Shown here: positions 13,623-34,712 of the stretch, in pieces
Numbering within the stretch: position 1 is the first letter of the stretch
Layout: every line of letters starts with the position of its first letter
NCBI GenBank assembly: GCA_035556555.1
Contig: DATMES010000020.1
Coordinates: 1 to 64,000, forward strand
Direction of reading: 5' to 3'
Length of the DNA stretch: 64,000 bases
Source: Frankiaceae bacterium
GTDB taxonomy: Bacteria; Actinomycetota; Actinomycetes; BP-191
The notes under the pieces: generated by a model
Seen by the model: the letters and a program-made list of their open reading frames with translations, nothing else
The model's database searches: none
Told to the model about the DNA's origin: nothing
Translations under genes and position numbers: made by a program

Positions 13623-13677
13623 CGTCAGCCCCTCCCCGCACCCGGGGGATCCGACCCGGGACACGACGAGGCTAGGC

Positions 13678-13829
13678 CATGTCTCGCAACCCGTCGATCT
13701 GCCGCGCGACGCCCGGCACGGCACCTCGCGGCGTTGTCGGAGCCCCCGATCGCGCTGCTATCAGGGGCCCTCCGCCTTGCGATGCACTGTCCGGACGCCG
13801 CTCGCGACGATCACGGGTTGCGCGACATG
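13678..13829. repeat. Palindromic intergenic repeat, copy A
   Basis: A 152-base element closed by imperfect inverted arms: CATGTCTCGCAACCCGTC on the left, and the complement of CATGTCGCGCAACCCGTG on the right. The core closely matches the element at 33484-33643, including CGCGTTGTCG-type, GCGCTGCTAT and CTCCGCCTTGCGAT blocks. An inner hairpin pairs GCCCCCGAT with ATCAGGGGC around loop CGCGCTGCT. It lies 12 bases after the stop of the sigma-factor gene and upstream of the DUF4190 pair, so it is in the 3' region of a transcript. Confidence 0.75.
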
Positions 13830-13841
13830 CCCAGCGCGAGA

Positions 13842-14852
13842 TCAGGCGTTCGCGGCAGCCCTCAGCTGCTGCAACGACCGCGCGAGCAGCCGCGACACGT
13901 GCATCTGGCTGATGCCGACCTTCGCCGCGATCGCCGACTGCGGCAGCCCGTCGAAGAACCGCAGCTTGAGGATCGCCCGCTCCCGCTCGGGCAGCGCCTC
14001 GAGCGCCGGCACGAGCCACGCGCGTTCCTCGACCATCCGGTAGCCGTCCTCGACCGCCGGCTGGTCGTACCAGCCGTCCTCGTCGTCGCCGCGCGGGGCG
14101 TCGAGCGAGGCGACGCGCAGCGCGGAGCGCGCCTCCAGCGACTCGATGACCTGCTCCTCCGAGACGCCGAGGTGCGCGGCCAGCTCGGAGGGCGTCGGCG
14201 TACGGCCGATGCGGTGCGTGAGGTCCTCGCTCGCCGACCGTACGGCGAGGTACAGCTCCTGGACGGGGCGTGCGACGTGCAGCGTCCACGCGTGGTCCCG
14301 GAAGTACCGCTTCAGCTCGCCGGTGATGGTCGCCTGCGCGTACGTCGAGAACTGCACCTCCCGCGTCGCGTCGTAGCGCTGCGCGGCGGTGACGAGCCCG
14401 AGGTACGCCACCTGGCGCAGGTCCTCGAGCGGCTGCCCGCGGCCCGCGAAGCGGCCGGCGAGGCGTTCGGCGAGGCCGCGGTGGTCGCGGATGAGCGCCT
14501 CGACGTCGGTCTCGCCCTCGCGGACGACCTGCAGCGCCCGGGGCGCGCGGACGCAGGCGAACAGCTCGTCGCCGGCGTCCCGGAGCGCCGCGAACACCTG
14601 CCGCGACGGGTTGGCGAGCACGAACGACCGCCCCGCCTCCTCGGCGATGCGCCGCGCCTCATCGAGGACGGCGACGCCGTCCGCGTCGAGCAGTGTGACG
14701 CCGCGGAGGTCGAGTACGACTGTCGGGCCTGCCTGGCGGCAGGCCGAGCCCACGACGGCGACGACGGGCGCTGCCCGGTCGTCGATGTCGCCGATGATCT
14801 CGACGCGCACGGTGTCCGTACGCGTCGTGTCCAGTGCTGCTTGCATCCGCAT
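13842..14852 (-). CDS. STAS domain fused to SigB/F-type sigma factor
   Basis: The 336-residue product joins an N-terminal STAS (anti-sigma antagonist) domain (about 14-105) to a complete SigB/F/G-type sigma factor (about 115-336). In the sigma part, region 2 includes LEDLRQVAYLGLVTAAQRYD and FSTYAQATITGELKRYFRD, region 3 includes GRTPTPSELAAHLGVSEEQV, and region 4 includes LPERERAILKLRFFDGLPQS with SQMHVSRLLARSL as recognition helix. In stand-alone anti-sigma antagonists the switch motif is DSSG or DSTG and the first Ser is phosphorylated by the anti-sigma kinase. Here it reads DADG (residues 56-59), so that serine is missing. No anti-sigma gene lies next to it. The ATG has CCGGAG about 7 bases upstream. 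Confidence 0.9.
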   Translation of the reverse strand: MRMQAALDTTRTDTVRVEIIGDIDDRAAPVVAVVGSACRQAGPTVVLDLRGVTLLDADGVAVLDEARRIAEEAGRSFVLANPSRQVFAALRDAGDELFACVRAPRALQVVREGETDVEALIRDHRGLAERLAGRFAGRGQPLEDLRQVAYLGLVTAAQRYDATREVQFSTYAQATITGELKRYFRDHAWTLHVARPVQELYLAVRSASEDLTHRIGRTPTPSELAAHLGVSEEQVIESLEARSALRVASLDAPRGDDEDGWYDQPAVEDGYRMVEERAWLVPALEALPERERAILKLRFFDGLPQSAIAAKVGISQMHVSRLLARSLQQLRAAANA

Positions 14853-29276: not shown

Positions 29277-29450
29277 TTGCGCAAGATCCTGCTCGCGGCC
29301 GCGGCCGCCGGCCTGCTCACCGCGTCGTTCGCCGGTACGGCGTCGGCCTCCGAGTGCATCCAGTGGCCCAACCCGCTCGGCTGGGACCAGATCGAGGTCT
29401 GCCACCAGCTGCCGATCGACCCCCAGGACATTATCGAGCTCGAGTCCTAG
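29277..29450 (+). CDS. Small secreted protein, unknown function
   Basis: Starting at TTG 29277, with AAGGAG 7 bases upstream, the 57-residue product has a signal peptide (LRKILLAAAAAGLLTASFAG, cleavage near TASA-S) and a mature part of only about 30 residues with two cysteines (ECIQWPNP, EVCHQLPID). It resembles in size and design the protein at 61910-62113. A longer in-frame extension upstream is possible but runs through the repeat and lacks coding character. The stop codon is part of the left arm of the palindromic repeat copy C. Confidence 0.65.
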   Translation: MRKILLAAAAAGLLTASFAGTASASECIQWPNPLGWDQIEVCHQLPIDPQDIIELES

Positions 29451-29614
29451 GAGGGATCTGCGAACCCCTGCCCTGCTGCGCCGAGCCCAGACGGCGACCG
29501 GCTTCGTTCTCGGTCGCCTGCGGGCAACACCAGCCCGCAGGCTCCCTGCGGCCTCGCCGGATCGCCGCCTGGCTCTCGGCTCGCGACGGGCCGGGTTCCG
29601 CAGAACCCTCCTAG
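29447..29614. repeat. Palindromic intergenic repeat, copy C (diverged)
   Basis: A 168-base element with long imperfect inverted arms: CTAGGAGGGATCTGCGAACC on the left, complement of CTAGGAGGGTTCTGCGGAAC on the right; next inside, GCCGAGCCCAGACGGCGA against a near-complement. An inner hairpin CCTGCGGGC/GCCCGCAGG lies in the centre. The conserved blocks CTGCTGCGC, GGCTCGCGACG and GGAT-type words align with copies A and B at lower identity. It begins inside the stop codon of the small secreted protein gene. Confidence 0.6.
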
Positions 29615-33481: not shown

Positions 33482-33483
33482 CA

Positions 33484-33643
33484 GGGCGTGTCCGGTGGAT
33501 CCTCGGTCTGCTGCGCGGCGCCCAGGGCGGCGCCTCGCCGCGTTGTCGTCGTCGCGCATAGCGCTGCTATGCGCTCCTCCTCCGCCTTGCGATCCACCAC
33601 CCTCACCTCCGCTCGCGACGACCGAGATCCACCGGACGCGCCC
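33484..33643. repeat. Palindromic intergenic repeat, copy B
   Basis: A 160-base element with outer arms GGGCGTGTCCGGTGGATC on the left and the complement of GGGCGCGTCCGGTGGATC on the right. An inner hairpin GCGCATA/TATGCGC encloses loop GCGCTGC. Conserved blocks shared with copy A are CGCGTTGTCG, GCGCTGCTAT, CTCCGCCTTGCGAT and CCGCTCGCGACGA. It fills the whole gap between vdh and the thioredoxin-NHL gene: 1 base after one stop and 2 bases before the next start. Confidence 0.85.
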
Positions 33644-33644
33644 T

Positions 33645-34712
33645 CTACGGACGCAGGTACAGCCCGCGCAGCCGGCCGACCTCGGCCATGCGCCGCTCGG
33701 CGAACCGGTCGGCGGCCACCGCGGGCGGCACGCCCTCGGACGCCGCGATCGCGAACACCTGCTTGGTCGTGTCGAAGATCTTCGCGGCGTGCGACTTGGC
33801 GCGCTCGAAGTTGAAGCCCTCGATCTCGTCGGCGACCTGGACGAGGCCGCCGGCGTTGACGACGTAGTCGGGCGCGTAGAGCACGCCGCGGTCGGCGAGG
33901 ACCTTCTCGATGCCGGGGTGGTCGAGCTGGTTGTTGGCGGCGCCGCAGACGACCTGCGCCTGCAGCACCGGCACGGTCTCGTCGCTCAGCGCGCCGCCGA
34001 GCGCGCACGGCGCGTAGACGTCCATGGCCTCGGACACGAGCGCGTCCGGGGCGACGGCCTCGACCTCGGGGTGCTGCGCCTGGACACGCGCGATCGCGTC
34101 GGCGGAGACGTCCGCGACGACGACCGAGGCGCCGTCGTCGACGAGGTGGTCGACGAGGTGGTGGCCGACCTTGCCGACGCCCGCGACGCCGACCCGCTTG
34201 CCGGACAGCGTCGCCTTGCCCCAGACGTGCTCGGCGGCCGCGCGCATGCCCTGGAAGACGCCGTACGCCGTCAGCACAGCCGAGTCGCCGGCGCCGCCGT
34301 GCTCGGGGGAGCGGCCGGTGACGTACGAGCACTCGCGCGCGACGACGTCCATGTCCTGGACGTACGTCCCCACGTCGCACGCCGTGAAGTAGCGGCCGTT
34401 GAGCGACTGGACGAAGCGGCCGTACGCCCGCAGCAGCGCCTCGCTCTTGTCCGTCGCCGGGTCGCCGATGATGACGGCCTTGCCGCCGCCGAGGTCGAGG
34501 CCCGCGCAGGCCGCCTTGTACGCCATCGCGCGGGAGAGGTTGAGGACGTCGTGCAGCGCGTCGTCCTCGGTGGCGTACGGGTAGAAGCGCGTCCCGCCGA
34601 GCGCAGGGCCGAGGGCGGTGGAGTAGATGGCGACGATCGCCTTGAGACCGGAGGCGGGGTCCTGGCAGAAGACGACCTGCTCGTGCCCGGTGTTCTCGCT
34701 GAAGACGCCCAC
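33645..34712 (-). CDS. vdh: Valine (branched-chain) dehydrogenase
   Basis: NAD-dependent oxidative deamination of valine and related amino acids, feeding branched-chain precursors to fatty-acid or polyketide synthesis. The product strongly resembles Streptomyces Vdh: [54 protein letters not shown] (catalytic Lys), [16 protein letters not shown], the Rossmann motif [17 protein letters not shown] and [15 protein letters not shown]. The start is set at GTG 34712 because AGGAG lies 9 bases upstream; an ATG at 34760 would add 16 low-complexity residues ([11 protein letters not shown]). Length is normal. The palindromic repeat follows its stop after one base. Confidence 0.93.

Follow-up and report, generated by a model that had tools for sequence, protein, structure and literature searches.

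Palindromic intergenic repeats of Actinomycetota are MITE-like mobile elements that keep a structured core and exchange their ends

How can three intergenic repeats in one stretch of a Frankiaceae genome differ in their stems while each copy still pairs with itself? The original prediction, made for three copies in the 64,000-nucleotide stretch of DNA analyzed here (the window), took this as a sign of a selected RNA or cruciform structure and did not consider mobility. All three copies were found, and their arms and apical hairpins were seen in the sequences to differ on both sides of the stem, as predicted. The repeats are mobile, MITE-like elements. The copies and their parts are listed below, with scores from R1, a covariance model whose alignment comprises 20 copies from the window's genome.

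13674..13834, minus strand: copy A of the hairpin element (R1, 138.8 bits; A in the model alignment; end-to-end fold), flanked by a sigma-factor gene with a STAS domain (stop at 13842) and a DUF4190 gene, by Pfam
13770..13783, minus strand: first core word of copy A, ATCGCAAGGCGGAG (exact match; reads CTCCGCCTTGCGAT on the plus strand)
13725..13739, minus strand: second core word of copy A, CGACAACGCCGCGAG (from the sequence)
33483..33645, minus strand: copy B of the hairpin element (R1, 158.8 bits; B in the model alignment), overlapping by one base the stop codon of a Glu/Leu/Phe/Val-dehydrogenase-like gene, its other end preceding the ATG (33481) of a thioredoxin/NHL-repeat gene by 1 nt, both genes by Pfam
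33618..33645, minus strand: 5′ outer arm of copy B, terminal repeat AGGGCGCGTCCGGTGGATCTCGGTC (R1 alignment; pairs with 33483-33507)
33483..33507, minus strand: 3′ outer arm of copy B (R1 alignment)
33580..33593, minus strand: first core word of copy B, ATCGCAAGGCGGAG (exact match)
33534..33548, minus strand: second core word of copy B, CGACAACGCGGCGAG (from the sequence)
33554..33574, no strand assigned: apical hairpin of copy B, GCGCATAGC-GCT-GCTATGCGC (sequence and fold)
29449..29613, minus strand: copy C, a divergent subfamily with arms CTAGGAGGG... (R1, 67.0 bits, E 3.3e-12)

Copies A and B were included in the alignment from which R1 was built and match it by construction, whereas copy C was left out and is an independent match. 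Close relatives of copy C are present in a congener (G002), where the C subfamily is repeated. As had been noted before, all three copies adjoin stop codons: copy A lies 8 nt away from one, copy B has the one-base overlap, and copy C runs over the stops of two convergent genes. The earlier statement that A and B have unrelated outer arms does not wholly hold; the arms of both copies are forms of a single terminal repeat, (A)GGGCGTGTCTC.

Each copy is an imperfect hairpin of ~160 nt from end to end (range, about 125 to 165 nt), composed, from the outside to the inside, of outer arms (the terminal repeats), a middle stem, a core, and an apical hairpin, and the copies align over about 163 positions. 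All 20 copies with the word CTCCGCCTTGCGAT fold end to end as a single long imperfect hairpin. In all 20, the more stable fold was that of the strand corresponding to minus in the window's copies, so that this is probably the strand on which the fold naturally forms. Column identity among copies of the window's genome was 0.97 for the core words compared to 0.73 for the outer arms and 0.68 for the apical hairpin. In copies from many genera, one side of the core is AUSGCAAGGCGGAGGAGG and the opposite side is CGACGACAACGCNGCSAG, and the core is near invariant in 33 diverse copies; its internal loops, AAG/N and GAGGAGG/CGACGACAA, are asymmetric and conserved, and the letter S changes together on both sides. 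The apical hairpin is variable and is wholly absent from three copies of the window's genome (L006, L007, and L012), which, like a fourth copy without it in another genome (G320:C1:4447719-4447840, L343), keep all or part of the core words.

The ends fall into several classes, whose termini were read by arm extension with strict scoring (lenient extension overran the ends). The commonest class, TAGGGCGTGTCT.. and its variants, was found in the window's genome, in Streptomyces, and in G018 and G320. Two further classes, TTAGAGCGCCCGGCAATAGG and TTAGTGGTCGCCGCCGGAA, both also occur in G018, and TTAGAGGCCGCGCCAATAGGTGG, CTAGTGACCYGAGTYGGAA, and CTAGTGCTGTGGCCGGAAAGG were found in G238, G306, and G384, respectively. 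The same core is thus seen with different terminal repeats inside a single genome (G018; G320). Several Streptomyces copies (L092, L094, L097, L105, L114, L121, L126, and L130) contain inside an arm a shorter hairpin of about 40 to 50 nt (GGGGGTCCCTCCCGTGCC..GGGGGAG type), which looks like another small repeat family within this one.

Searching the whole genome and its relatives with a covariance model, as had been proposed, produced many further copies. At least 44 clear copies were found with R1 in the 4.0-Mb genome, opposite-strand echoes of the same copies being left out of the count, and all 20 exact occurrences of CTCCGCCTTGCGAT in the genome lie inside such an element. R1 matches were present in 10 of the 40 genomes searched as relatives (the window's own included), with 35 and 16 in two congeners and 57 and 30 in members of two other families (G018 and G009, respectively). 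For one terminal-repeat word in G018, ~418 matches were counted compared to 14 for the control, which points to some 200 copies. A pattern made of the two core words matched at least 120 contigs; among the matches listed, all are actinobacterial, mostly from Streptomyces and Kitasatospora, with further hosts in Rathayibacter, Frigoribacterium, Pseudonocardiaceae, Streptosporangiaceae, and Frankiaceae. Matches were also found in 57 Streptomyces plasmid records. In a survey of the phylum, 18 of 396 genomes matched, several of them in other classes, a lower bound given that 9 candidates were scored per genome. Such a patchy spread fits a mobile element. The phage collection searched contained no match to the element, and among the IMG/VR viral contigs only four stretches (L344 to L347) match the core pattern, which may be true phage copies or may be host flanks. 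Contigs of draft assemblies often stop right in or at a copy (G001:C66, C113, C133, C45, and C24; G009:C922 and C405). The element therefore seems to break assemblies, and copy counts from drafts would be too low.

Insertion could be read at one CTAG site that exists in three states. This site (L035, with counterparts in G001 and G002) is empty in the window's genome (GGCCTAGAGCACACC), holds a C-type copy in G002, and holds a copy of another subfamily in G001. In G002, the C-type copy stands between two CTAG sequences (AGCACACC), the CTAG having been duplicated compared to the empty site; two convergent genes share this CTAG as their stop, and each still has its stop codon after the insertion. 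When the concatenated flanks of 16 copies of the window's genome were used as queries and each flank was read by local alignment, the flanks of 9 of the 16 sites (L031, L032, L034, L037, L039, L041, L045, L048, and L050) were contiguous in at least one of the two congeners, with no element between them. Target duplications were CTA(C) at L034, TCAGCGGCT at L039, and GACGTTCA at L048. Because the length of the duplication varies, being CTAG or TA in some cases and about 8 to 9 bp in others, more than one enzyme is probably involved. With genes called by open frames and GC3, 21 of 29 copies in the window's genome were found within 6 nt of a stop codon, and a CTAG at a stop codon is clearly one of the targets. 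In the 64-kb window, CTAG occurs 20 times compared to 161 times expected from base composition, an about eightfold depletion, and because it is so rare elsewhere, targeting of CTAG explains the position of the copies at stop codons. The element has terminal inverted repeats, no coding capacity (no gene lies inside the ~125 to 165 nt), target-site duplications with empty orthologous sites, and ends in common with an autonomous element, IS5, in four genomes (G013, G320, G039, and G278). By these features the family qualifies as a MITE, although it is unusual in that the core is kept and the ends are exchanged.

The shared ends suggest a candidate for the mobilizing enzyme. Insertion sequences of ~945 bp, bordered by CTAG, are present in the complete genomes G320 and G013; their ends are CTAGGGCRTGTCTGAYAA and CTAGGGCRYGTCTCCYAAC. 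The CTAGGGCRYGTCTCCYAAC ends nearly equal the ends of the hairpin elements in the same genome, G013 (TAGGGCGTGTCTCTCAACTCC). The proteins of these insertion sequences match NF033580 IS5 and PF13340/PF01609, and we take the group to be IS427-like. More generally, the commonest terminal repeats resemble the ends of IS5-family insertion sequences of ~0.92 to 0.95 kb in other host genomes; in the Streptomyces-like genomes G039 and G278, the readable IS5 ends are TAGGGCGTGTCTCTTTGG, TAGGTTCTGTCTGACAAAGG, and similar. Genes of the NF033580 type were present in 8 of 13 element-bearing genomes. Profile searches of the window's genome for DUF4096/IS5 and for the NF033580 IS5 transposase found neither, and NF033580 was not found in G001, G002, G009, and G036. 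For several terminal-repeat classes, no insertion sequence with matching ends was found. We can thus only infer the mobilizer of the copies in the window's genus, which may have been lost there or not yet recognized. In G039, about 50 nt separate an IS5-type transposase gene (G039:C22:70511-71427, L394) from a hairpin copy, an arrangement that may reflect a composite or nested insertion.

The stems showed changes on both sides far above both controls used, and the copies do not differ on one side only. RNAalifold gave 57 pairs for the alignment of copies from the window's genome, 32 of which had changed on both sides. In this alignment, the paired cells came to 94.6% compared to 81.9% after shuffling, double changes to 134 cells compared to 37, and the covariation score to 0.379 compared to 0.155; for each of these, none of 500 shuffles was as high. 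When the alignment was slid, pairing went down to 32 to 51%, a comparison that is flattered because the structures were derived from the same alignments as were tested. A second alignment, built afresh from 33 diverse copies of many genera, was 89.4% paired, with a covariation score of 0.504 compared to 0.185 after shuffling. Whole arms changed in a coordinated manner, copy B having 7 double changes and no mismatch and copy L008 having 11 double changes and 1 mismatch. In the outer-arm cells as a whole, 86 double Watson-Crick changes were counted compared to 34 G-U, 7 A-C, and 26 other combinations. There is also a double change in the core, from AUCGC..GCGAG to AUGGC..GCCAG.

The double changes of the arms are by themselves no proof of a selected RNA, because palindrome correction would give the same result. 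The core, however, has loops that a perfect palindrome would lack and that are constant over the phylum, and this requires selection. Selection on the core is well supported, and its near invariance together with the conserved asymmetric loops points to a folded single strand as the target of selection. The prediction of a selected RNA or cruciform structure is partly supported: the core is under selection, but correction could equally yield the double changes of the arms, and the copies show no bias in their orientation to host genes. That selection on the fold is strand specific is suggested, not shown. In the arms, G-T exceeds A-C 803 to 46, but this largely reflects a few fixed G-U pairs. 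Counted as separate minority types, the ratios were 18:13 (p 0.47) and 33:20 (p 0.10), and the overall excess was therefore not accepted as decisive.

It is quite possible, if somewhat short of probable, that the elements are MITEs whose paired arm changes are mutational, produced by hairpin-templated palindrome correction (template switching), with the fold under selection only in the core. This would account for the replacement of whole arms on both sides with few single-sided intermediates and for the weak strand bias of the minority changes. Over the phylum, however, the asymmetric loops have not been corrected to a perfect palindrome, and double changes are found in the core as well. Another explanation is a regulatory RNA that acts in cis for the host, as a 3′ untranslated region element, terminator, or insulator, ending or stabilizing the transcripts of adjacent genes, and that has spread because of its usefulness at these places. 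The location at gene 3′ ends, the very stable fold, and the strong conservation of pairing are all consistent with such a role, but we consider it unlikely. Among co-directional gene pairs, 42 copies were in sense and 55 in antisense orientation (p 0.22), copy B sits between two co-directional genes directly before a start codon, sites are empty in congeners, and the position at stop codons is explained by CTAG targeting. Given this neutral orientation, a role in host mRNA is unlikely, and one that serves the element itself is more plausible.

The neutral orientation, and the fact that arm structure is better kept than arm sequence, would also be expected if the folded single strand were DNA used in transposition or site-specific recombination, as are the ends of IS200/IS605 elements and integron attC sites. 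IS200/IS605-type insertion takes place without target duplication. Here, the target is duplicated on insertion, the ends match a DDE-type IS5 insertion sequence, and a Y1 transposase (PF01797) was not found in the window's genome by a search whose control was positive. We regard this reading as highly unlikely. It appears doubtful that the element is a parasitic structured RNA comparable to SINEs, in which a functional RNA core, perhaps captured from a host RNA, would ride on various insertion-sequence ends. The high identity of the core argues for this, as does the combination of the same core with several unrelated terminal repeats, even within a genome. Against it, no Rfam relative above the gathering score was found (for copy B, none up to E 10), and there was no sign of reverse transcription.

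Among the known systems closest to this family, IS5-derived MITEs (NF033580 type) are likewise short, noncoding, multicopy, and intergenic, with CTAG target duplication, and the terminal inverted repeats here are like those of the IS5 insertion sequence in related genomes. The present element differs from them in being palindromic over its whole length and in having its core best conserved and its ends least, the same core being found with ends of several classes. ERIC/IRU and Correia (NEMIS) elements of proteobacteria are palindromic interspersed repeats whose transcripts fold into long hairpins (PMC10969869). They are similar in size (about 100 to 170 nt) but are set apart, going by their descriptions, in that here the arms vary freely with pairing kept and the core is common to the phylum. 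QMITE2 of Coxiella burnetii, with a core of 113 to 145 bp, repeats of 23 to 29 bp, and a stable folded transcript (PMC10969869), is comparable in size; it belongs to a different phylum, and the exchange of ends around a conserved core is not reported for it. REP/BIME sequences, mobilized by RAYT/Y1, are also interspersed structured palindromes near gene 3′ ends, but the element here is much longer than their 20 to 40 nt and has a target duplication. The REP/RAYT system was rejected for the absence of the Y1 transposase from the window's genome, and an IS630/mariner-derived MITE was rejected because DDE_3 (PF13358) was not found in the window's genome (G000) or in G001, G002, G009, or G039. A known Rfam RNA family was also rejected, as the gathering score was not reached and relaxed E-values gave no match for the element; weak matches to microRNA models fell on a related locus only. 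In the open literature (subscription journals were outside the scope), no paper was found that contained the core words or described the family, and a 2024 review of prokaryotic MITEs makes no mention of Streptomyces, actinobacteria, or mycobacteria. The family thus appears to be undescribed in Rfam and in the open literature searched.

The explanation we favor, with a probability of about three in four, is that the repeats are a family of non-autonomous, MITE-like mobile elements of Actinomycetota with a selected core and IS5-type mobilization. Judging from their ends, copies of the TAGGGCGTGTCT class would be moved in trans by IS5-type transposases, and the other terminal-repeat classes may use other transposases. 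A CTAG at a stop codon is duplicated on insertion, so that the flanking genes keep their stops. The two core words face each other across defined internal loops and are kept while the terminal repeats are exchanged. The core may act in folded, single-stranded form, most likely as RNA transcribed from the element and less likely as single-stranded DNA, and so help the element to persist or spread, and the complementarity of the arms may be held by that need of the core fold together with palindrome correction. A more tentative extension is that the core could be a selected RNA domain that parasitizes several insertion-sequence families by swapping terminal repeats, a counterpart of SINEs whose transcript fold would be needed for spread.

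In this family, the usual pattern of MITEs is reversed, since it is the ends that vary, even within one genome, and the core that stays. A noncoding mobile element with a conserved structured core makes the role of that core open to test. Some actinobacteria, antibiotic producers among them, carry tens to hundreds of copies, and the copies mark recent insertion at stop codons. The family also offers a natural system for separating selected compensatory change from palindrome correction.
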